Assembly (NCBI GenBank): GCA_020073485.1
Contig: JAIQFB010000003.1
Span: 62,001 to 126,000 of the forward strand
Direction: 5' to 3'
DNA from: Terriglobia bacterium
GTDB lineage: Bacteria; Acidobacteriota; Terriglobia; Acidiferrales; UBA7541
DNA: 64,000 nucleotides
Shown here: piece after piece, positions 3,735 to 19,572 of the stretch
Numbering within the stretch: the stretch's first letter is position 1
Layout of the letters: each line of letters opens with the position of its first letter
Notes under the pieces: generated by a model
The model's database searches: none
Told to the model about the DNA's origin: nothing
Seen by the model: the letters and a program-made list of their open reading frames with translations, nothing else
Position numbers and translations under genes: made by a program

Positions 3735-6700
3735 ATGCCGAACAACAACCCAGCCCCCAACGAGATCCCCAAGGAATTCGAGCGCCTCGATCACAAGGAA
3801 AAGGAACTCTGGCGCCTGGCCTTACTGATGCTTGCCATCCTCGCTGTTGGCGTAGGGGTGTTGTCTCAGGAGGACCTCCAAAAAGGGCAGCTCAATCTCG
3901 AAGCCCTCCCGGTTGGAGTAGGCGTTCTCATCATCCTGTTTGGGTTGTACCTCTGGAAGAAGAAGCGGGAGATTGACGAGCTGCGCGGCTTCGTCAAGGG
4001 CTTCCAGCAGATGAAAGAGGCGCCGCCGACTGCCGAGCAGCTCGACAAGCTCGCGGATGTCATTGCCGCGTCCCGCCAGGGTTACCGCGATTTGATCGAC
4101 AGCATGGACCATCTGGTCTTCACGATTTCCCTGGACGGGGAAATCCGCACCGTGAATCAGCGCATCACGGAAGTATTTGGACATTCCTACTCCGAGCTTG
4201 TGGGGCACAAGTTGGACGAGTTCTTTGACGAGCCAAGCAGGGAAGCCGTGCAAAAGTCGGTCGATTGGTTTTCCGAAAAGCGCCATTGGACAGGAACGGT
4301 CCGCGCGCGCCTGAAGAAGACGGGCAGCGCGCGCTATTTTGATTGCGTCTTACAGGCAATCGTCAAGGACGGGAAAGTGGTTGGCGCCAGCGGGCTGGCC
4401 CGTGACATCACCGATCAGCGCGAGAGTGAATCGCGCTTCACGGAGCTATTTGAAACCCTTCAGGAAGGCGTCTATTTTTGCGATACGGCCGGAAAACTGT
4501 TGGACGTGAATCCGGCGATGGTGCAAATGCTGGGATATTCGCACCGCGATGAACTGGTGGGAACCAACATCGGCAAGCTATATCACCAAGTCCCGCAATC
4601 GCCTTTTCCGGAATGGGGGCAGGGCCGCGGCTCCTCGCCGCTTACCCGCGAAGTCGTCCTGCGCAAAAAGGACGGAAGCCCGATCGTGTGCATCGATAAC
4701 TCCAACGCCATCTGCGATTCCTCCGGCCGCATGATCCGCCACCAGGGAACCCTGGTGGACATCACGGACAGGAAGCGATCGGAAGAGGAATTGCAAAAGG
4801 CCAAAGAGGCCGCGGAAGCGGCCAGCCGGGCCAAGAGCGGCTTTCTGGCGCATATGAGTCACGAGATTCGCACGCCGATGAACGCCATCATCGGCATGAC
4901 CGAACTCGCGCTGGATACGCAGCTCACCGAGGAACAGCGGGAATTCCTGACCATGGTTCGCAGTTCCGGGAAGTCCCTGCTGGCCCTGATCAACGACATT
5001 CTGGATTTTTCAAAAATCGAGGCGGGAAAACTGAGCCTGGAGCGCATCGAGTTCTCCCTGCGATATGCCACCAGCGACACCGTGAAAATCCTGGGGTTGC
5101 GGGCAAGGCAAAAGGGGTTGGAGCTGCAGAGCCAGATTTCTCCGGAGGTGCCGGACGCGCTTTTGGGCGATCCCGGCAGGCTGCGGCAAATCCTGTTTAA
5201 CCTGATCGACAACGCCATCAAGTTCACTGAGCGGGGCCGTGTAACGCTGCGCATGGAAGTGGACTCCCGATCCGAGCGCGAAGCCTGCCTGCATTTTTCG
5301 GTCGCCGATACGGGTATCGGCATCCCCAGGGAGAAGCAGCTCCTTATTTTTGAGGCCTTCACCCAGGCGGACAACTCGATTACGCGCAAATTCGGAGGAA
5401 CTGGCCTTGGCCTTTCGATTTCCTCGCGCCTGGTGGAACTCATGGACGGAAAAATCTGGATCGAAAGCGAAATCGGCCGGGGCACCATGTTTCATTTCAC
5501 CGCGCGCTTCGGACTGCAAAAGCAATCGGCAAGGAAAATTCCCGCCCGATCCGATTTGAAAGGGACGCGCGTGCTGCTCGCCGACGATTTGCCGACCAGT
5601 TCCCGGCTTCTTGAGCTCATGCTCTTGAATTGCGATATGCAACCCGTGGTCTTCAATAGCGGCCGGGAAGCGCTGGCGGCCTTGACCCAGGCGGCAATAG
5701 ACGGGCAGCCTTTCCCGTTCCTGCTGGCCAACACGAATCTTGCGGAGCTGGACGGCTTCAGGCTGGCCAAGGAGATCAAGCTGAATCCGGAAATCGCGCA
5801 GACCCAGATTCTCCTGTTCACGTCCGAAGGACTGGCTGGGGATGCGGCGCGCTGCCGCGAGTTGGGTGTTTCCGCCTACTTGACTCTTCCCGTGGATCAA
5901 GCGACGTTGACCGAAGCGTTTATCGCCGCTTTGGACGCGCGCACGGCCGGTCCGGACCGCGCCGTCCTCGCGACTCGGCACTCGTTGCGCGAAGGAACAC
6001 AGAACCTGCGAATCCTCCTGGCCGAAGACAACACCGTCAACCAGATCCTGGCCGATCGTTTGGTTCGCAGGCGGGGCCATTCGCTGGTCATCGTCAACAA
6101 CGGGCGCGAGGCCCTCGACGCCCTGGACCGCGAACACTTTGATCTGATCCTGATGGACGTTCAGATGCCGGAAATGAGCGGCCTCGAAGCCACCGCGGCC
6201 ATACGCCAAAAAGAAAAAAGCGCCGGTTCGCGCATTCCCATCATTGCGCTCACGGCCTTTGCCATGAAGGACGACCGCGATCGTTGCCTGGAAGCGGGCA
6301 TGGATGACTATGTGACCAAACCCATCGAGCAAGCGGCGCTGTTTGAAGCCATCGAGAGACTTACCGGTGTCGCTTCCGCGCAGAACGCACTGGCGACAGC
6401 CGAATCGAATGCTGGTGAGGGGCCTTCCGGCGTCGCCGTTTTTGACATGGATGCTGCTCTGGAGCATCTCGGCGGAGACGCCGACCTGCTTCGCGAAATC
6501 GTGGGCATGTTCCGAACGCAGTGCGACAAGTGCATGGCAAAACTTCGCGAGGCCGTGGCCAAGGGCGACGCCGTCGGAATCGAATTTGCCGCGCACGCGC
6601 TGAAAGGCGCGGCCGCGAACCTGTTTGCGCAGGGCACGGTGGAAGCCGCTTTGCGGCTCGAGGAATTGGGGCGGTCAGGCTCTACCGACGGCGCAAGGGA

Positions 6701-6788
6701 AATGCTGGCTGTGCTGGAATCGGAAATTTCCAGATTGCGGCTGGCGCTAGAAGATATCGAGAAGGAGTACGCGAAGTCGCAGGCCTGA
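3735..6788 (+). CDS. Hybrid sensor histidine kinase (PAS-PAS-HisKA-HATPase-REC-REC-Hpt)
   Basis: This 1017-residue multi-domain phosphorelay protein has two membrane helices near the N-terminus (about 27-44 and 58-74), two PAS domains, then a dimerisation/phosphoacceptor domain with His376 in HMSHEIRTPMN. The ATPase domain follows with N, G1 and G2 boxes (LIDNAIKF, DTGIGIP, GGTGLGLSI). Two receivers and a C-terminal Hpt domain (HALKGAAANLF) complete it, an overall BarA-like order. The first receiver is degenerate: the phosphoacceptor Asp is Asn666 (LLANTNLAELDG) and the conserved Lys-Pro reads Leu-Pro. The second receiver is canonical (LMDVQMPEMSG, TKP). ATG 3735 is chosen for AGGAG at 3723-3727; longer in-frame starts lack a site. 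A single-domain regulator converges downstream. Confidence 0.93.
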   Translation: MPNNNPAPNEIPKEFERLDHKEKELWRLALLMLAILAVGVGVLSQEDLQKGQLNLEALPVGVGVLIILFGLYLWKKKREIDELRGFVKGFQQMKEAPPTAEQLDKLADVIAASRQGYRDLIDSMDHLVFTISLDGEIRTVNQRITEVFGHSYSELVGHKLDEFFDEPSREAVQKSVDWFSEKRHWTGTVRARLKKTGSARYFDCVLQAIVKDGKVVGASGLARDITDQRESESRFTELFETLQEGVYFCDTAGKLLDVNPAMVQMLGYSHRDELVGTNIGKLYHQVPQSPFPEWGQGRGSSPLTREVVLRKKDGSPIVCIDNSNAICDSSGRMIRHQGTLVDITDRKRSEEELQKAKEAAEAASRAKSGFLAHMSHEIRTPMNAIIGMTELALDTQLTEEQREFLTMVRSSGKSLLALINDILDFSKIEAGKLSLERIEFSLRYATSDTVKILGLRARQKGLELQSQISPEVPDALLGDPGRLRQILFNLIDNAIKFTERGRVTLRMEVDSRSEREACLHFSVADTGIGIPREKQLLIFEAFTQADNSITRKFGGTGLGLSISSRLVELMDGKIWIESEIGRGTMFHFTARFGLQKQSARKIPARSDLKGTRVLLADDLPTSSRLLELMLLNCDMQPVVFNSGREALAALTQAAIDGQPFPFLLANTNLAELDGFRLAKEIKLNPEIAQTQILLFTSEGLAGDAARCRELGVSAYLTLPVDQATLTEAFIAALDARTAGPDRAVLATRHSLREGTQNLRILLAEDNTVNQILADRLVRRRGHSLVIVNNGREALDALDREHFDLILMDVQMPEMSGLEATAAIRQKEKSAGSRIPIIALTAFAMKDDRDRCLEAGMDDYVTKPIEQAALFEAIERLTGVASAQNALATAESNAGEGPSGVAVFDMDAALEHLGGDADLLREIVGMFRTQCDKCMAKLREAVAKGDAVGIEFAAHALKGAAANLFAQGTVEAALRLEELGRSGSTDGAREMLAVLESEISRLRLALEDIEKEYAKSQA

Positions 6789-6810
6789 GGGAATTCTGCC
6801 GGCGGGGAAT

Positions 6811-6832
6811 CGCGGAGAAATCGTTTCTCGCG
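6811..6832. terminator. Possible bidirectional terminator hairpin
   Basis: An AGAAA/TTTCT stem with flanking CGCG complementarity lies between the converging hybrid-kinase and response-regulator genes. The position suits a shared terminator, but the hairpin has a bulge and no clear run of T on either side. Confidence 0.35.
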
Positions 6833-6839
6833 GAGACCA

Positions 6840-7247
6840 TCAGGCGGTTACGGGGCAAAACATCTGGATGATGTTCACTAATTGGTCCGCTTTTAGCGGC
6901 TTCACCATATAAATCACCGCTCCCAGGTCGTGGCCGGTTTTGAAATCCTTTGGATCGCCGCGCGAAGTCAGGAAAATCACGGGAACGTTGGCGAGCCGCG
7001 GCTCACGTTTCACCAGATAGCAAAGGTCGTAGCCGGAAATTCCCGGCATCATGACGTCGAAGATCAGGACAGCCGGAGTGAGATCTCTCAAAATCTGAAG
7101 CGCTTCTTCGCCGCTGGAGGCTTTCTTCACCACGTAATCATGGCGCATTAACTGCGCCTCGATGATCCGGAGAACGGTTGGATCGTCATCCACTGCGAGG
7201 ATCACGGGACTTTTCGATGGATCCGGGGTTGGTTTTGTCGTAGGCAT
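6840..7247 (-). CDS. Single-domain response regulator (CheY-like)
   Basis: This 135-residue protein consists of one receiver domain. It has the acidic pair in LAVDDDP, the phosphoacceptor Asp in IFDVMMPGISGYDL, the Thr in FLTSRGD and the Lys in MVKPLKADQL. No output domain follows, so it must act by protein-protein contact or as a phosphate shuttle. A Pro/Thr-rich leader of about 14 residues precedes the domain. It converges on the hybrid kinase gene 51 bases away; a phosphorelay with that kinase is plausible but only inferred from position. Confidence 0.88.
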   Translation of the reverse strand: MPTTKPTPDPSKSPVILAVDDDPTVLRIIEAQLMRHDYVVKKASSGEEALQILRDLTPAVLIFDVMMPGISGYDLCYLVKREPRLANVPVIFLTSRGDPKDFKTGHDLGAVIYMVKPLKADQLVNIIQMFCPVTA

Positions 7248-11245: not shown

Positions 11246-11331
11246 GCCCGGGTGGCGGAATGGCATACGCGGGGGACTTAAAATCCCTTGCCCTCCGGGG
11301 CGTGCGGGTTCGACTCCCGCCCCGGGCACCA
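11246..11331 (+). tRNA. tRNA-Leu (UAA anticodon)
   Basis: The 86-nt gene has acceptor strands GCCCGGG/CCCGGGC, D-arm GGTGGCGGAATGGC, anticodon loop CTTAAAA with anticodon TAA, a long variable arm as in leucine tRNAs, T-arm GGTTCGACTCC and an encoded CCA. Its last 25 bases are repeated exactly at 15488-15512. Confidence 0.96.
11307..11331 (+). repeat. attL: tRNA-Leu 3' end (25-bp direct repeat, copy 1)
   Basis: The 3' end of the tRNA gene, from the T-arm through the CCA, is identical over 25 bp to 15488-15512. It is the left boundary of the integrated element. Flanking sequence diverges immediately after the CCA. Confidence 0.9.
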
Positions 11332-11569
11332 ACGCATTTGGTTGAAAGTGAATCAATTAACACGCTCCGGTTTCTCGTGTACCTCTCTGGTATATTCAGT
11401 CGGGCACCAACTCGATTGTGATGTCGCTAAGCCAGATTCCACTCAAAGGCGTCGGCCAGCAGAATGTAGCTCGATGAGCCCGCCGGAACTACGTAGAAGT
11501 GGCAAATTGAGAACTGCTACGATTCCTGATTCAACGCCCTGACTAAACAGCCCAGAGAGGAGTTATCTG

Positions 11570-13282
11570 ATGCCTGAACCCACATCTGTCTCGCAAATCG
11601 ATCTGACACCCATCGCTGGCAAACAATACTTCGCTCTTGAACGCGAATGGCGTGAAGAGTTCATTTACTTTTTGATGGTGGATCGCTTTCATGACGGGCA
11701 AAGCCGGGCGGCTGTGCCGCAGCCCAACCGCTCTGTGGGAGTGCAAACGCCCGATGGATTTTACGGTGGGAAAATCAAAGGTATTACTGATCATTTGGAT
11801 TACATCGCCGGCCTTGGTTGTACGGCGATCTGGCTTTCTCCCGTGTTCGAGAACAATGCCGGCGCGTACCACGGATACAACATTAATAATTACCTCAATA
11901 TCGATCCGAATTTCGGCACCAAGCAAGACCTCATTGACCTGGTGAATGCCGCGCACGGCTTTCGGAGAAATGGGCAGCCCTGGCCGATGCGTGTGATTCT
12001 CGATGTGGTCATCAATCACTCCGGCGATAACTGGGCTTACCCCGCTGGTGAGCCGTACTTCTACTTCAACGACCAGCAGTTTCCCTTTGGCTTCTGGAGA
12101 GGCAACGACCGGCCCGTTCCAACGGATCTACGCGACCCAACGTGGTATCACCGGCGCGGGCGAATTAGAAATTACGACGCCTACCCGGAGGTGGAACACG
12201 GCGATATCGACAGCCTGAAGGACTATGCCAACGACGACGATGCCATCGGATCCATGGTGATCAATGCCCTCATCAAGGCTCACTGCTATTGGATTCGTGA
12301 GGTTGATATCGACGGCTTCCGTATGGATGCAGTCAAGCACATGAATGCTGTCGCTTGCTCGCGCTTCTGTTCAAGTATTCGTGAGTACGCCTACTCGCTG
12401 GGCAAACGCGGATTCTTTCTGTTTGGCGAGGTCGCTACTCCCGATGACGATATCTACAATCGGTATATCGGACAGAATACTTCCGTAACCGATGGGAACA
12501 ACACGATCTTTTTCGGCCTCGATTCGGTCCTCGATTTTCGATTGGCTGAAGGAATTTACGGTGACGAGAACAATGCGCCGTTGCGAGACGTACTTAAAGG
12601 CTTCAAGGGACCGCAAACGCTCTTCAATCGCTTGGAAGCCCAGCGGCAGCGGGCATTGAACCGCGGAGAAATCGGCCGGTATTTGGTTGAATTCATCGAC
12701 AACCACGATTCGTTCTGGCAACCTTCTGGGCGCTTCGCCAACGGCGCCTCGGACGACCAAGTCATCAGCGCGATCGGTTTCGTGCTATGCGTGCTCGGGA
12801 CCTCTTGTATCTACTATGGGACTGAACAGGGCTTCTCCGGCCAAGGCGGAGACAACCATATGCGCGAGGCCATGTTCGACAAAGGAGTCCCGGGTAGAAA
12901 TCTGCTAAATATGGACTGCCGCATCTACAAGGAAATCGCTAAGATCGCCGAAGTCATGCGCGACAATGAGCCGCTGCGTTTTGGCCGGATGTACTACAGG
13001 CAGATCTCAGGCGACGGCCAGCACTTCGGTTTCCCGTTTGGAAGCGCCTACACGCTGGCATTCTCGCGCCTGCTCTACGGTCAGGAAGCGCTGGTCGCCT
13101 GCAATATCTCGGGCGCGCCACGAAACGATTGCGTCGTCGTGGACTCGACGCTGCATAGTGATGGGTCAACCATGCGATTTCTGTATGGCGCGGCTGGCAC
13201 ACCAGCCGTCGGTACCGCGACCGATGGGACACGATTTGTCCGGCTGAACTTGCCGGCGTTTGGATTTGTCATCCTCGCGTAG
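11570..13282 (+). CDS. GH13-family alpha-amylase-type glycosidase
   Basis: 570 residues without a recognisable signal peptide. The (beta/alpha)8 catalytic domain shows the four GH13 regions in order: ILDVVINHSG, the nucleophile Asp in DIDGFRMDAVKHM, the acid/base Glu in FLFGEVATP, and the transition-state Asp in EFIDNHDSFW. A beta-sandwich C-terminal domain (GQEALVACNISG ...) ends the protein. It would hydrolyse or transfer alpha-glucans; specificity cannot be assigned. The start follows AGAGAGGAG at 11555-11563. It lies inside the tRNA-Leu element and so was probably acquired with it, an unusual metabolic cargo for so small an element. Confidence 0.92.
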   Translation: MPEPTSVSQIDLTPIAGKQYFALEREWREEFIYFLMVDRFHDGQSRAAVPQPNRSVGVQTPDGFYGGKIKGITDHLDYIAGLGCTAIWLSPVFENNAGAYHGYNINNYLNIDPNFGTKQDLIDLVNAAHGFRRNGQPWPMRVILDVVINHSGDNWAYPAGEPYFYFNDQQFPFGFWRGNDRPVPTDLRDPTWYHRRGRIRNYDAYPEVEHGDIDSLKDYANDDDAIGSMVINALIKAHCYWIREVDIDGFRMDAVKHMNAVACSRFCSSIREYAYSLGKRGFFLFGEVATPDDDIYNRYIGQNTSVTDGNNTIFFGLDSVLDFRLAEGIYGDENNAPLRDVLKGFKGPQTLFNRLEAQRQRALNRGEIGRYLVEFIDNHDSFWQPSGRFANGASDDQVISAIGFVLCVLGTSCIYYGTEQGFSGQGGDNHMREAMFDKGVPGRNLLNMDCRIYKEIAKIAEVMRDNEPLRFGRMYYRQISGDGQHFGFPFGSAYTLAFSRLLYGQEALVACNISGAPRNDCVVVDSTLHSDGSTMRFLYGAAGTPAVGTATDGTRFVRLNLPAFGFVILA

Positions 13283-13445
13283 TCGGTGGCCCTTTTCACG
13301 GACGTGAAGACATGACGGTTTAATCTAAAGTATGGCTGTAATCACGTTCGAGTGGATTTGGTGCGGCCCGGGAGCAACCGTCACCCGTGCAAGTGGGTGT
13401 TCCGTTACGAGCCAGAAGTCCGCGTGTGGGCCGTGACCGGACCCG

Positions 13446-14390
13446 TCAAGTGTCTTCCAGCCCGATGTTGTCATTCACCGCCTGGCTGAGTTCTTGTTTG
13501 CAACCGAGATAGCGCTCAGTTGTCTGAACCGATGCGTGCCCAAGCAAAAACTGAATCTGTTCAAGTTCTCCGCCAGCCAAATGGCATAACCGTGCACAAG
13601 TGCGCCGCAAGTCATGCGGAGCAAGATCCTTGATGCAGGCACGCTTCGCGGCCGCTTTCACAATGTGCCAGATCGCCTTGGGCGTGATTCTATCGCCGCA
13701 GATCCTACCCAGCCGACTTACTCGCCGGATGATCACACCGGCGCCGATGCCAGCTGCCGTGGTCCATTCATCGACGGCACGTTTTGCCCACACTGGAACC
13801 GGAACTGTACGGACGTGCTTTCCTTTGCCGATCAGGTCCGCGATTACCCAGTGCTCCTCACGGACCTGAAAGTCTTCTGTTCCGAGTCCAACCAGTTCAG
13901 CCCGGCGCAGGCCGCATCCAATCAGCAGCGCAAGATTCGCCCGGTCTCGTTTGCCTCGAAGGCTGTTTGATGGTGGTTCGCCGAGAAGAGTCTTGGACTG
14001 ATCGACAGTCAACCAGTTGCCAATCCGAACGCCGAGACGCTTGGCCCCTTTGACGCGACGAATTCCGGCGGCCAGTTCAGGGCTCAATAAGCCGGTGTCG
14101 GAGGCTTCGTAGGCGAGCCGCCTCACAGCGGCTAGGCGGACGTTGATGGTAGAGGGCGCGAGATTCTTCTGTTCAAGAAAGAACCGGTAGCGAAGGACGA
14201 CAGTTCGGTTAAGAGCCAAACGCGGCTCGGAGCAGTACCACCCAATGAATTCGTCTATAGCATGGCCGTATGATTCTTGCGAACTGGCCGCTGCGAGCGA
14301 GTGAAGAACCGCATTCTTCGCCTGCTCCAGGTCGGGCAGCCGAAGTATCGTTTTAGACTTGGAGCGTTTTGATTTCTTCCGATGCGCCAT
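13446..14390 (-). CDS. Tyrosine recombinase / integrase
   Basis: 314 residues. An N-terminal SAM-like core-binding domain (about 25-110; SQESYGHAIDEFIGWY) precedes the catalytic domain. The active-site residues are visible: Arg in GCGLRRAELVGL, the H-x-x-R box HDLRRTCARLCH, the His in LLGHASVQTTE, and the nucleophile Tyr in ERYLG. I chose ATG 14390, preceded by GGGAGG at a good distance, over 14417. This is the only recombinase in the window and sits within the tRNA-Leu element, whose integration it can explain. A Lys/Arg/Ser-rich leader precedes the domains. Confidence 0.93.
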   Translation of the reverse strand: MAHRKKSKRSKSKTILRLPDLEQAKNAVLHSLAAASSQESYGHAIDEFIGWYCSEPRLALNRTVVLRYRFFLEQKNLAPSTINVRLAAVRRLAYEASDTGLLSPELAAGIRRVKGAKRLGVRIGNWLTVDQSKTLLGEPPSNSLRGKRDRANLALLIGCGLRRAELVGLGTEDFQVREEHWVIADLIGKGKHVRTVPVPVWAKRAVDEWTTAAGIGAGVIIRRVSRLGRICGDRITPKAIWHIVKAAAKRACIKDLAPHDLRRTCARLCHLAGGELEQIQFLLGHASVQTTERYLGCKQELSQAVNDNIGLEDT

Positions 14391-14581
14391 GCTGGCGGCC
14401 TCCCACGCCGCGGCCATTATGGTCGTTCAGGTGGAGGCTGATGGCTTCGAACCCGTTTCTCAGGCATTGGGGCGGGTTGGCGAGCCTAAACTAAATAACC
14501 ATTATTAAGTATCATAATTATAAACTAAGCTTTAACGGGTCGCGCGTTCGAGACGATGCTCGCCAGAGGAGGTAAGCAACT

Positions 14582-14971
14582 ATGGATCCAACTCGGGCTG
14601 TGATATGGATTTTCTTGGGGATTTTCGTATTGACGGCGCTGATAGCTCTCGGGGGACTTGTCGGGTGGGTCTCACTTGAGCCCTATTACAAGAAGAACCT
14701 CTTTAAGCTCCTCATCCTTGAAGTTGTTGGATGCGTCATCGGTTTCAGCCGACGCATGGGCGTGGAAAGTCTGGGGGACTCCGATATTGGAGTGCTATCA
14801 GATTGTGTTTTCACATTCATGGTTCAGCTCAATCCGTGGCTGGGTTGTCACATCTCGGCCCGTCCTGCTATCCCCAAAGCCAAATCTCGAAATCGCGATT
14901 GCAGGCGATTTAGAGAGCACATTCATCAGCGAGGAGGGGTGGTGCCACAGAGCCAGATTTGTCCCCTTTAG
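14582..14971 (+). CDS. Small hypothetical membrane protein (possibly frameshifted)
   Basis: The 129-residue frame has a strong AGGAGG site just upstream of ATG 14582. The first 60 residues look like a real protein, with two hydrophobic segments (about 6-28 and 42-56) separated by LEPYYKKNLFKLL. After about residue 58 the composition changes to Arg/Cys-rich sequence with no hydrophobic pattern, so a frameshift or truncation is likely. It lies inside the tRNA-Leu element, upstream of the recombinase on the opposite strand. I do not recognise a family. Confidence 0.4.
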   Translation: MDPTRAVIWIFLGIFVLTALIALGGLVGWVSLEPYYKKNLFKLLILEVVGCVIGFSRRMGVESLGDSDIGVLSDCVFTFMVQLNPWLGCHISARPAIPKAKSRNRDCRRFREHIHQRGGVVPQSQICPL

Positions 14972-15338
14972 AACTGCGTAAACATTGGCGATTTGACGCC
15001 CGATTTTCGCGTTTAAGACTTCGCTGACCTGCCTTTTTGCAGGTAGCGTTGCAGTACAGAGCATCAGCCCGCAAATGGGCCAATGAGCCGGGGCCATGAT
15101 CCTCTCCCCTGGTGCATCGCGGATTCCGGCACAAGCGGCCAGTGGCAACTTTGGTCCCTCGCTTCAAGGATGTTAGGGCTGTCGCCAAGGGCGACAGCTT
15201 CTTACGCCGCTGCATTCGGCGTATAGCCTCGGGGCGCGACACTAACTCAGTCTGCTGGATCGTTGCGATGACACGCTCTTCATCGGCTGACCATCCCATC
15301 GGCAACATCCTGCGGTCTTGTCCTTCATTGAGCTGCAT
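14910..15338 (-). CDS. Small protein with a putative Cys-rich zinc-binding motif
   Basis: 142 residues starting at ATG 15338 behind GGAGG. The middle part has LCRNPRCTRGEDHGPGSL and then ALYCNATCKKAGQR, a CxxxxC-(about 22)-CxxxC spacing that resembles small treble-clef or FCS-like zinc knuckles. The N-terminal region (EERVIATIQQTELVSRPEAIRRM) looks helical and could be DNA-binding. It lies at the right end of the tRNA-Leu element, where an excision factor or regulator would be expected, but there is no specific evidence for that function. Its 3' end overlaps the frame at 14582 in the opposite direction, so both may not be expressed in full. Confidence 0.5.
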   Translation of the reverse strand: MQLNEGQDRRMLPMGWSADEERVIATIQQTELVSRPEAIRRMQRRKKLSPLATALTSLKRGTKVATGRLCRNPRCTRGEDHGPGSLAHLRADALYCNATCKKAGQRSLKRENRASNRQCLRSSKGDKSGSVAPPLLADECAL

Positions 15339-15487
15339 GGTGGTCCTCCGCAAATGGACACAAATATCCGCGAAAACGGTGGAGGCGCCGTGTACCCGCC
15401 GTGTACCTCACTTCGGCGTTTCTGTCGTTTTTGTGGGTTTTGCCGGAATATGGAATGAATAACTTACGCCTTTTCAATATGGCGGAA

Positions 15488-15512
15488 GGTTCGACTCCCG
15501 CCCCGGGCACCA
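15488..15512 (+). repeat. attR: tRNA-Leu 3' end (25-bp direct repeat, copy 2)
   Basis: Exact copy of 11307-11331. No tRNA 5' part precedes it; the upstream bases are unrelated element sequence. It marks the right end of the integrated element. Confidence 0.9.
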
Positions 15513-15619
15513 GGAAATTGACCTCCCGTTTGAAATGGACCTGACGACAGGGAACGTGGAATCGGATAATAAGGCCGGGGGCTCGAGCCACAGGTTCGAG
15601 CCCCCTTTTGTTGAGATCG

Positions 15620-16717
15620 TTATTGAATCGTGACTTTCTGGACGTCCCACATGCTGGCGGAGCCGATGTACAGCAGGTTGGAGGTCGGGCAGGCGATGGC
15701 GTGAACCAGGTCGCCTGTGTTGTCCTCGCCGTGGCCCAGGCTGGTTTGGGCCCAGCCCTGGACCTTTCCGTCCAGGCTCAGCTTGTAGATTTTGCCCGTG
15801 GTGCCGTCGCCGGTGAATAGATATTGCGTCGGGCCGGGGCTGACGCAGACTTCCCATGGCATGGCCACGCCGGTGATGGTCTTCACAAAGTTTAATTCGG
15901 AGTCATAGACCTGGATGCGCCGGTTTCCGCGGTCGGCAACATAAATGTTGCCCTTGTCATCGGCGGCGATGCCGTGCGGTGTCCGGAACTGATCCTGTCC
16001 GGTGCCGTAGGTTCCCACTTCCTTCAGCCACTTGCCGCCGGGCGCGATCTTCACAATGCGCGAGTTGCCGTAGCCGTCGGAGATGTAAATATTTTCCTGC
16101 GGATCAAAGGCCACATCGGTGGGGCGGTCGAATTCGCCGACCCTTCCCTTTGGATGCAACTCCCGGTTGGCTTGATTGGCATAGCCCCTGCCGAAATGTT
16201 CGACGAACGTCTCGAGATAATCGATCGCCTCCGGCGTCCGGCCCAGCCACTCGACGTTCTGGCCCTCGGGGTCGAATTTGACGATCATGCCGGAGCCTTC
16301 ATCCACCATCCACACATTGTCGTGTTTATCGACGCGCACGGCGTGCGCGAACGACTCGGCATAGTTATGCGGACCCCACTCCTTCACGAATTTGAAGTTC
16401 TGGTCGAACTCGAACAGCTGTGCGGCCTGGCCTCCGCGCGAAATTCCCTGAGGGTTGGTGCGCGAATACACGAACATGTGGCCTTTGGAGTTCAAGGACA
16501 CCCCAACCGTCTGGCCCATCGTAAATCCGGGAATGCTGAGGCGCAGGAATTGGTCGGTGATTTTCATCTCCGAGTAGGTTTTCTCCAACTCCAGTTGCTT
16601 GGCAACTTCTTCCGGGCTGCCTCCAAACTGGGCCAGGGCCCGCTGGGGCAGGAGCAGGCCCGCGGCAATCAGCAAGCCGGGCGCGAAACACGAAAACAGA
16701 ATGCGAAGGGGTTTCAT
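15620..16717 (-). CDS. Exported NHL-repeat beta-propeller protein
   Basis: 365 residues with a Sec signal peptide (MKPLRILFSCFAPGLLIAAGLLL...ALAQ). Repeated blades then carry NHL-type signatures: RPTDVAFDPQENIYISDGYGNSRIVKI, TPHGIAADDKGNIYVADRGNRRIQVY and HAVRVDKHDNVWMVDEGSG. Propellers of this group resemble the peptidyl-alpha-hydroxyglycine amidating lyase fold, but most bacterial members have no known activity and bind ligands or proteins in the periplasm. I chose ATG 16717 because it starts the signal peptide and has GGAG upstream; the longer open frame reads as non-coding. It lies just outside the tRNA-Leu element. Confidence 0.85.
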   Translation of the reverse strand: MKPLRILFSCFAPGLLIAAGLLLPQRALAQFGGSPEEVAKQLELEKTYSEMKITDQFLRLSIPGFTMGQTVGVSLNSKGHMFVYSRTNPQGISRGGQAAQLFEFDQNFKFVKEWGPHNYAESFAHAVRVDKHDNVWMVDEGSGMIVKFDPEGQNVEWLGRTPEAIDYLETFVEHFGRGYANQANRELHPKGRVGEFDRPTDVAFDPQENIYISDGYGNSRIVKIAPGGKWLKEVGTYGTGQDQFRTPHGIAADDKGNIYVADRGNRRIQVYDSELNFVKTITGVAMPWEVCVSPGPTQYLFTGDGTTGKIYKLSLDGKVQGWAQTSLGHGEDNTGDLVHAIACPTSNLLYIGSASMWDVQKVTIQ

Positions 16718-17281
16718 GTAAGGAATTCTCCTTTTCCAAAGAAACGTCCGGCCGGGGCGCACCCGGGCGGTCTTGCACATCGAACCGTTTAGCTGCATCG
16801 GCCGAATGGCACACTCGGTTTCCTCCGGCGTTTGTTTTGTGATTTCTTCTCGGGTTGGCGGAAGTCTACTACCGGCCGTCTCCGTACACAACGCAATCCA
16901 CGCGCGCCTCCGCCCACGAATAGCGATTGGTGATGGAGAGCATCAGGACTTTGAGTTTGCCTTCCGGGGGAAGACCCTGCAAAATAAATAGTGAAGTGTA
17001 ATTAATCTGGATCTGCAGTTTGCGATGCCTCTCTTTTCCTCGATGAATTGAGAATTTCCCCAGCCGGTTCGCAGGTTCCGAGTCGTACCGGGCACACTGT
17101 TGTGACCAAAGCGGCACGCGCGACGCTGGAAGTTTATCACTGCGTCATCGTTTCGTAATGCCGCACCCGTACGATCGCAATGCAAGGTAGGACCGCCGGT
17201 TCCGCCCGGACGCTGTTTGTATTCCGGGAATGCCGGAGTGTTTCATCGCGTCGTGTTATCGCAACAAGGAGGAGACGAACC
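16718..17281. other. Intergenic region between divergent genes
   Basis: No confident gene. It must contain the promoters of the NHL-protein gene and the TonB gene. A minus-strand frame ending near 16869 has a plausible-looking C-terminus (KLKVLMLSITNRYSWAEA) but no supported start and could be a gene remnant. Confidence 0.4.
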
Positions 17282-18133
17282 ATGTTGAATCAAAATGTGT
17301 TTTTGATGGAGGACGCGCCTCATGCCAGCAAGCCCAAGATCAGTTTCGTGCTGCCTTCCTCGGAAATGGCGGCGAAACAGAATCTTTTTGCCGAGGCGAT
17401 CCTCGAGAAGAGTTCGGTACGCCAGAAGAGGAGCCCGCTGAAATGGGCGGCCTCGCTCGGGGCTCACGTCGCAATTTTATTTATTCTCATTCTAATGCCA
17501 TTATATTTTTCGCAAGGTTTGAACCTGCAACGGCTCAATATGACACTCCTGGTCGCGCCGCTGCCGCCCGCGGCAGCGCCACCACCACCGCCGCCTGCCG
17601 CCGCGCCGCGCGTGGCTCGCGTGATTCCAAAAACCTTTACGCCTGGAAAATTGACGGCGCCGTCCTACGTTCCCCGCGCCGTGGTTAGCACGCCGGACGT
17701 GGCTCCGCCTGCGGAAGCTTTCGCGGGGATGCCGGGCGGCGTGCCGGGAGGAATGCCCGGCGGTCAGCTCGGAGGAGTCCTGGGCGGGACGATGAATGGA
17801 GTGGCCGCGCCCGCCGCGCCGGTAGTTGCTGCGGAAGGACCCAAAGGGCCCGTGCGAGTCGGTGGCAGCGTGAAACCGCCGCGGTTGCTCTTCGGCCCCG
17901 CGCCCGTCTATCCGATTCTTGCCAAGCAATCCCGCGTTCAGGGCATCGTCGTGATCGAAGCGATTATCGACGAGCACGGGAATGTGGTTCAGGAAAAAGT
18001 GATCAGCGGGCATCCGTTGCTGGTTGAGGCGGCTTTGAAAGCTGTGTCGCAGAGGAAATATGAAGCCACAGTCCTGGACGGCCAGCCTACGCCGGTCGAT
18101 CTGCGCGTGGAGATAACGTTCCGCGAAGGTTAG
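17282..18133 (+). CDS. TonB-family energy-transducing protein
   Basis: 283 residues, ATG preceded by AAGGAGGAG. The order is a cytoplasmic N-terminus of about 55 residues, one transmembrane helix (HVAILFILILMPLYF), a Pro/Ala-rich spacer with a run of six Pro, a Gly/Met-rich stretch of MPGG-type repeats (about 140-165), and a C-terminal TonB domain (PVYPILAKQSRVQGIVVIEAII, with YEATVLDGQPTPVDLRVEITF at the end). TonB couples the proton-motive force at the inner membrane to outer-membrane receptors. No ExbB/ExbD genes are nearby. It could serve the TonB-dependent receptor at 39520, though they are 21 kb apart. Confidence 0.88.
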   Translation: MLNQNVFLMEDAPHASKPKISFVLPSSEMAAKQNLFAEAILEKSSVRQKRSPLKWAASLGAHVAILFILILMPLYFSQGLNLQRLNMTLLVAPLPPAAAPPPPPPAAAPRVARVIPKTFTPGKLTAPSYVPRAVVSTPDVAPPAEAFAGMPGGVPGGMPGGQLGGVLGGTMNGVAAPAAPVVAAEGPKGPVRVGGSVKPPRLLFGPAPVYPILAKQSRVQGIVVIEAIIDEHGNVVQEKVISGHPLLVEAALKAVSQRKYEATVLDGQPTPVDLRVEITFREG

Positions 18134-18205
18134 ACGCAATCGCGGGCAGTAGGAGATCGCCCGCATATTCAATCAGCGTCTGTGAGGTTTGAAATTGTTG
18201 CAGTT

Positions 18206-18237
18206 GTAGGGGCATCCGCCGCGGTGGGTGCCCCTAC
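18206..18237. repeat. REP-like palindrome
   Basis: GTAGGGGCA and its reverse complement TGCCCCTAC flank a GC-rich centre (CCGCCGCGG). It lies between the converging TonB and dctA genes and could help terminate both. The 7416-7457 segment is a diverged copy. Confidence 0.6.
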
Positions 18238-18264
18238 TCCAAGTACCGTGCGAAGAACTCCCCC

Positions 18265-19572
18265 TCAGGCCAAATTCTTGCGCAATGTGTCCACGTCGAG
18301 TTCGCGCTCCCAGCGCGCAACCACCAGCGTCGCCACGCCGTTTCCGATCATGTTCACCACCGCGCGGAACATACTCATGAAGCGGTCGATGCCAACAAGC
18401 AGAGCCATGCCCGCCACCGGAATTGTGGGAACGACCATCAGCGTCGCGACCAGCGCAATGAATGCCGCTCCGGATACTCCACTGGCTCCCTTCGAAGTCA
18501 GCACGGCCACGCCGAAGATCGCGAACTGCTGCAGCAGCGTCAGGTGGATATTCGTGGCCTGCGCGACGAACAGCGCCGCCATGGTCATATACAGGCTGCT
18601 GCCATCAGTATTGAATGTGTAACCGGTGGGCACGACCAGACCGACCAGGGATTTCGAGCAGCCCAGCTTCTCCATTTTGGCCATGAGCGTAGGCAGCGCC
18701 GGATCCGACGAACTGGTGGCCAGCACCACGATGATCTCTTCCTTGATGTACAGCAGAAATTTGATGATGTTGAATCCCGCGGCCCAGGCAACCAGGCCCA
18801 TAACCACCAGCACGAAAAGAGTGGAAGTGATCCAGAAGATGGCGATGAATTTGCCGAGCGGACCGAGCGATGCGATCCCGTACTGGCCAACGGTGAAGGC
18901 CATCGCTCCGAACGCGCCGATTGACGCGGTCCACATCATCATATTGATGATCTTGAAAACCACCTGCGTCAGTGCCTCGACGAAGTCGACGATCACCCTC
19001 GCTTTCTGGCCCGCCATCGACAAGGCAAATCCAAACAATACGGCGACCAGCAGCACCTGCAGAATATTGCCCTGGGCAAATGCATTCACCATGGTCGTGG
19101 GGATAATGTTCATCAGGAATTCGGGCACGGTCAGCGATTTGGAAGCGCCGGCGTAACTCTCCACGGATTTGGCGTTGAGTGTCGCGACGTTCACATTGAA
19201 GCCGGACCCCGGATGCACAACATTTCCGACGACCATCCCCGTAAGCAGCGCGAGAGTGGAAACGATTTCAAAGTAGAGCAGCGCCTTTCCGCCGATTCTG
19301 CCGACTTTTTTCAAATTCTCCATGCCGGCAATGCCCGTGACCACTGTGCAGAAAATCACCACGGTGATTACCATGGTGATCAGGCGGATGAATCCGTCGC
19401 CAAGGGGCTTCATCTTGACCGCGGACTGCGGGAAGAAATACCCGTACACGATCGCCAGGGCCACTCCAATCAGCACTTGCCCCCATAGTGTCAGGTAGAA
19501 CGGGCTTTTTTTGCGTGGAGCGCCTGGTTCGGCGGGAATTCGCGACTGATTGACTTGGGGCATGTCGCCCAT
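18265..19572 (-). CDS. dctA: C4-dicarboxylate:cation symporter (DctA/glutamate symporter family)
   Basis: 435 residues with eight or more hydrophobic segments. Diagnostic parts of the dicarboxylate/amino acid:cation symporter family are present: the Ser-rich re-entrant loop ATSSSDPALPTLMAKMEKLG, the TGYTFNTDGSSLY motif with substrate and cation ligands, and GASGVSGAAFI in the second hairpin. The family imports succinate, fumarate, malate or acidic amino acids with protons or sodium. The start has AAGGAG at a good distance. It is the last gene of the minus-strand 2-oxoacid dehydrogenase cluster, so uptake of the cluster's carbon source is a reasonable inference. Confidence 0.9.
   Translation of the reverse strand: MGDMPQVNQSRIPAEPGAPRKKSPFYLTLWGQVLIGVALAIVYGYFFPQSAVKMKPLGDGFIRLITMVITVVIFCTVVTGIAGMENLKKVGRIGGKALLYFEIVSTLALLTGMVVGNVVHPGSGFNVNVATLNAKSVESYAGASKSLTVPEFLMNIIPTTMVNAFAQGNILQVLLVAVLFGFALSMAGQKARVIVDFVEALTQVVFKIINMMMWTASIGAFGAMAFTVGQYGIASLGPLGKFIAIFWITSTLFVLVVMGLVAWAAGFNIIKFLLYIKEEIIVVLATSSSDPALPTLMAKMEKLGCSKSLVGLVVPTGYTFNTDGSSLYMTMAALFVAQATNIHLTLLQQFAIFGVAVLTSKGASGVSGAAFIALVATLMVVPTIPVAGMALLVGIDRFMSMFRAVVNMIGNGVATLVVARWERELDVDTLRKNLA

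Follow-up and report, generated by a model that had tools for sequence, protein, structure and literature searches.

What occupies the 3' end of the tRNA-Leu(TAA) gene in the genome of this soil-type bacterium, and which enzyme put it there? In the 64 kb window (the whole stretch of DNA analysed here, at its full length) a tyrosine recombinase and one glycosidase gene lie between two copies of the tRNA 3' end, about 4.2 kb apart. The preliminary description of this locus took the arrangement at face value, as an unusually small and recently inserted integrative element that carries its own recombinase and an amylase as cargo. We have examined the target site, the ends and the gene content separately, and they lead to different answers for different parts of this description.

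The tRNA-Leu site and its repeats

The target gene itself is intact (11246-11331, plus strand; identified by ARAGORN, with Rfam model RF00005 matching 11246-11328) and its 3' end acts as attL. By repeat comparison, its last 25 nucleotides, CCA included (11307-11331, plus strand), are found again without any mismatch at 15488-15512 (plus strand, attR), with a spacing of 4181, so that the repeats bound 4,181 bp. The odds of finding an exact 25-mer repeat by chance inside 5 kb are, by our own estimate, about 1e-8. The exact duplication around the amylase and the recombinase had been the central observation of the preliminary description, and it is confirmed.

Two other genomes of the same genus, G002 and G004, preserve the empty site. 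In both, a tRNA-Leu 99% identical to that of the window is directly followed by a transporter gene, the same that is found at 18265-19572 in the window. The bases that follow the tRNA in G002 (locus L044) match the right flank of the window (15488-15519) at 31 of 32 positions, while the left flank is not matched. Taken together, the empty sites and the right-flank match indicate that the 4,181-bp segment is an insertion, and the integration into tRNA-Leu that had been proposed, with the empty site as its check, holds. These empty sites also lack the 2.7 kb that separate attR from the transporter here (15513-18264), where an NHL-repeat protein and a TonB-like protein are encoded; this would reflect either a second insertion here or a loss in G002 and G004.

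The surroundings of this tRNA show other irregularities. A degenerate copy of the att region, CGGGCACCAACTCGATTG (11401-11418, 78 bp inside the left end and 83% identical to 11323-11340), may be the scar of an earlier element at the same tRNA. At positions 6660-7103 of locus L088 (G003:C32:76000-86248), from another genome of the genus, a tRNA-Leu resembling the one in the window is truncated in the anticodon arm, and some 130 bp downstream there is another tRNA-Leu with a group I intron in the anticodon loop (Rfam RF00028, 52.5 bits). The source genome is a draft of 46 contigs, and a local misassembly at the locus is possible.

Conserved ends and the integrase that adjoins them

With both strands of the 64 kb window counted, the heptamer GTGTACC, considered before as a possible arm site, has exactly three occurrences (11377, 15390 and 15401), all of them at the ends of the element. 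On the left (11332-11383, plus strand) a conserved 45-nt spacer (11332-11376) separates the tRNA from the arm-like copy at 11377-11383, which is followed at about 11389 by a second, degenerate copy (GGTATATT). The right arm, located by pattern search (15390-15420, plus strand), consists of the copies at 15390 and 15401 and then TCACTTCGGCGTT. Counted from where this arm begins, a AATGAATAACTT block that is conserved among right ends lies at 64 nt (15454-15465, plus strand), and the core TTCGA starts at 100 nt.

This geometry is repeated in many genomes of the class. A 31-bp right-end motif (GTGTACCCGCNGTGTACCTCACTTCGGCGTT) gave 25 copies in 19 of 399 genomes, with none for the reversed control, and in most copies the arm is followed, at a distance of 64 nt, by a AATNAATAACTT-type sequence and then by a T-arm/acceptor core belonging to tRNA-Leu, tRNA-Cys or others. 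A tRNA-like TTCGA core was present in 17 of the 26 loci read; of the 17 right ends that allowed a measurement, 15 have 100-101 nt from arm to TTCGA. For the left end, the combination of a tRNA 3' end, 43-47 nt and GTGTACC was detected in 33 of the 399 genomes (reversed control again zero), and a weight matrix derived from 28 other left ends placed the one in the window first among 127,910 window positions. The roughly 130 bp that precede a tRNA-Leu fragment in genome G044 also resemble the right end of the window, including the GTGTACC pair, and one contig matched the right-end motif among the viral contigs searched. The window combines a tRNA 3'-end core duplicated at both ends, a left end made of core, 45 nt and GTGTACC, and a paired GTGTACC arm at the family distance before the core TTCGA. 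Judged by these features, its ends belong to a widespread family of tRNA/tmRNA-targeting elements in this bacterial class. The GTGTACC repeats are thus well supported as conserved, regularly spaced and family-specific arm-like sites, to which the integrase of the family would bind. Our literature search found nothing specific on this acidobacterial family, which does not mean that it has never been described.

Insertion in the 3' end of a gene that is left whole, with a direct repeat at the far end, is shared with prophages and with tRNA/tmRNA-integrating islands that have tyrosine integrases, such as the ssrA-integrated vcr islands of Dehalococcoides (PMC3146451). The family described here differs by its distinctive paired GTGTACC arms and by the location of its integrase beside the tRNA, and the window element differs also in that its integrase is gone.

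We use the name IntA, coined in this analysis, for the integrase of the family, a protein of ~390 aa. In intact members its gene directly adjoins the tRNA at the left end and its last codons form the left arm. The complete element of G009 begins with tRNA-Cys, the left end and a 394-aa IntA read toward the tRNA, and extends 26.6 kb to the right end; both ends and IntA are likewise found in G033 (16.7 kb, with a tmRNA-like core) and in G654 (2.7 kb). Left ends with IntA occupy the very same tRNA-Leu(TAA) in G044, G613, G648 and G537, and elsewhere IntA sits on tmRNA-like or other cores. The G654 element (L350, the first 2.8 kb of G654:C164), whose core within the tRNA ends in CTCTCTCCGCCA, is smaller than that of the window and contains IntA, with an N terminus unmatched by the profile, and a serine-recombinase-like reading frame. 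Small members are therefore not unheard of, and the size that had been considered unusual is less so. Upstream of a tRNA-Leu right end (L254, G624:C139:44500-60885), a stretch of about 16 kb includes VWA-, phosphatase-, kinase- and helicase-like frames, recognized by eye, in what looks like defence-type cargo.

The element in the window lacks the intact IntA gene beside the tRNA. What it retains there is a putative relic of the 3' end of the gene (11353-11397, minus strand) reading EYTREVHEKPERVN-stop, where IntA tails read for example ETKGTPEVHEKNERIN-stop; the resemblance (EVHEKPERVN-stop against EVHEKNERIN-stop) partly reflects conserved att DNA and would not by itself prove that a complete IntA was once present. 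A profile search of 11246-11700 found no IntA body, and over the whole element the only match was to the catalytic motif shared with the resident recombinase. Since only the 3' tail is kept, we file the element as a remnant rather than as an autonomous member. Such a condition is ordinary for the family: among 30 left ends read, IntA was near-complete in 10, broken or cut by the contig end in 11 and undetectable in nine, the window included, so that these elements frequently lose their integrase in place. This also affects the claim of a recent insertion. The exact 25-bp repeat fits a fairly recent event and gives no date; taken alone it fails to show that the insertion is recent, as there has been time for the integrase gene to disappear.

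The resident recombinase and the amylase

If IntA is the integrase of the family, the role of the intact recombinase between the att repeats (13446-14417, minus strand, 323 aa; PF00589, E=4e-23) has to be explained otherwise. XerC/XerD are the models that fit the protein best, with scores under their cut-offs. Outside these genomes, its best relatives are carried by plasmids of Granulicella, Paludibaculum, Acidisarcina and Deinococcus, in some cases near ParA-like genes; the window copy differs from these plasmid recombinases in being chromosomal and inside a tRNA-Leu element, and members of its family also occur at scattered chromosomal sites. Closer relatives are present in G011 (93% identical) and in G023 and G048 (83-85%), and their flanks have only the gene and a few dozen bases in common with the window. 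The viral contigs searched contained one relative (66%), and the phage records searched gave distant matches only.

The possibility that this recombinase integrates the element at tRNA-Leu through the GTGTACC arms, the amylase being the cargo of a compact autonomous unit, draws on its being intact and enclosed by the repeats, and on a 63%-identical relative in G044, located 0.33 kb inward of a tRNA-Leu right end. The distribution of the family speaks against it. Among 30 other loci the arms were found at one only, that of G044; the remaining 29 lack them and nearly all of the 30 lack a neighbouring tRNA, so that the family is not tied to tRNAs and arms, and a search among its relatives' loci did not find the same recombinase at other tRNA genes. 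Even G044 has IntA beside tRNA-Leu; its left and right ends are on different contigs and would form one element. Complete elements with such ends use IntA, which is only distantly similar to the resident recombinase (39% over 46 residues around the catalytic motif, a weak match). A compact autonomous element driven by this recombinase is accordingly quite improbable, and neither the role of element integrase nor the naturally minimal size attributed to the segment is sustained. We read the recombinase instead as a plasmid-type gene that probably arrived as a passenger.

Two such placements, in the window and in G044, exceed what chance would give, and the recombinase may play some part in these elements or favour them as sites. 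Genes that by their translations, judged by eye, code for serine recombinases also recur near right ends of the family (L238, L245 and L350). It is conceivable, though we give it very little credence, that members of the family repeatedly have a second recombinase close to attR on its inner side, Xer-like in the window and G044 and serine-type in G654, L238 and L245, that works with the att ends, for example in the uptake or exchange of cargo. If this were true, the 4.2 kb unit would be a working carrier and not a relic.

The other large gene codes for a glycosidase of the GH13 alpha-amylase type (11570-13282, plus strand, 570 aa, intact), whose catalytic domain is recognized by PF00128 with 145 bits against a cut-off of 22 (E=5e-42). 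The closest solved relatives are the GH13 alpha-amylases of the Anoxybacillus/Geobacillus type (PDB 4e2o and 5a2a-c), which share this domain; only segments align with them, and the window protein falls in a distinct and patchily distributed clade. A Terriglobia MAG encodes a protein 86% identical to it, and identities of 64-73% are found with proteins from genomes that carry the labels Bradyrhizobium, Edaphobacter, a cyanobacterium, Nitrospirae and others; several of these genomes are MAGs, and taxon mislabelling is possible. No close relative was detected in 80 related genomes. Judged from these relatives, the amylase is an orphan gene of a distinct clade with a patchy presence across several phyla.

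Many genomes have a member of this amylase family on the chromosome as an orphan gene, and we have considered that the one in the window could be ancestral to its chromosome and flanked by chance by two recombination scars. The empty sites in two genomes of the genus, the absence of a close homologue in five other genus members and a GC3 of 0.65, below the value of about 0.75 of host genes, all oppose this, and for the genus sampled the idea is refuted; its probability appears close to nil. The cargo status proposed for the amylase is borne out by the same missing homologues and GC3. By composition and distribution it is foreign cargo, yet no hallmark of the element family: none of 80 amylase relatives fetched had the ends or arms of the family nearby, and in one of them (L094) an unrelated integrase, about 30% identical, is located just upstream.

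The remaining interior holds two putative ORFs, one of 129 aa (14582-14971, plus strand) and one of 147 aa with a Cys-rich segment (14910-15353, minus strand). Profile searches assigned neither to a family, and the second had one weak match in 250 genomes, away from arms.

A probable remnant of a larger element

The sequence directly shows an element with both ends of this family lodged in the tRNA-Leu(TAA) 3' end. Both att copies and both arm regions persist, around an interior of amylase, recombinase and two small ORFs. We consider it very probable that these 4,181 bp are what an internal deletion left of a member of the tRNA/tmRNA-targeting family common in this class, a CIME-like remnant without its integrase. 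In this scheme, the ancestral element would have been inserted by IntA, through recombination at the core in the T-arm/acceptor part of the tRNA and presumably with IntA bound to the GTGTACC arms; a later deletion would have eliminated IntA together with the greater part of the interior. The remnant would have taken up, or been left with, the amylase and the Xer-like passenger. DNA loss is the simplest explanation for the size of 4.2 kb. The term CIME (cis-mobilizable element) was defined for decayed ICEs and IMEs (PMC5704250). The window element resembles a CIME in keeping attL and attR and in having lost its own integration gene, and differs in carrying a second, unrelated recombinase; we apply the label "CIME-like" only, given that the ancestor of a CIME is a conjugative or mobilizable ICE or IME.

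A variant of this explanation differs in the present mobility of the segment, which would be a non-autonomous mini-element, still moved in trans by a related IntA from the same genome or from visiting elements; the att duplication would be exact because the move was recent. The good preservation of both arms and both cores, together with the exact 25-bp repeat, is consistent with such a mini-form, and contig C26 of the source genome codes for an IntA homologue (50% identical). No tRNA or GTGTACC arm adjoins this homologue in the stretch read, so that it may have another specificity; of the two left arm copies, the second is degenerate, and pattern searches detected a single left end and a single right end in the genome. 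We regard ongoing mobility as unlikely. The deleted remnant could nevertheless be moved in trans, or by accretion, given an IntA of matching specificity.

The signature of GTGTACC arms about 45 nt to the left and about 100 nt to the right of the core provides a way to find members of the family as well as integrase-less remnants. The locus also illustrates that a recombinase located between att repeats need not fit the ends, an arrangement that can be misread as a minimal element with its own integrase. It also offers one concrete way for a metabolic gene, of which this amylase with its patchy distribution is an example, to end up in a tRNA site.
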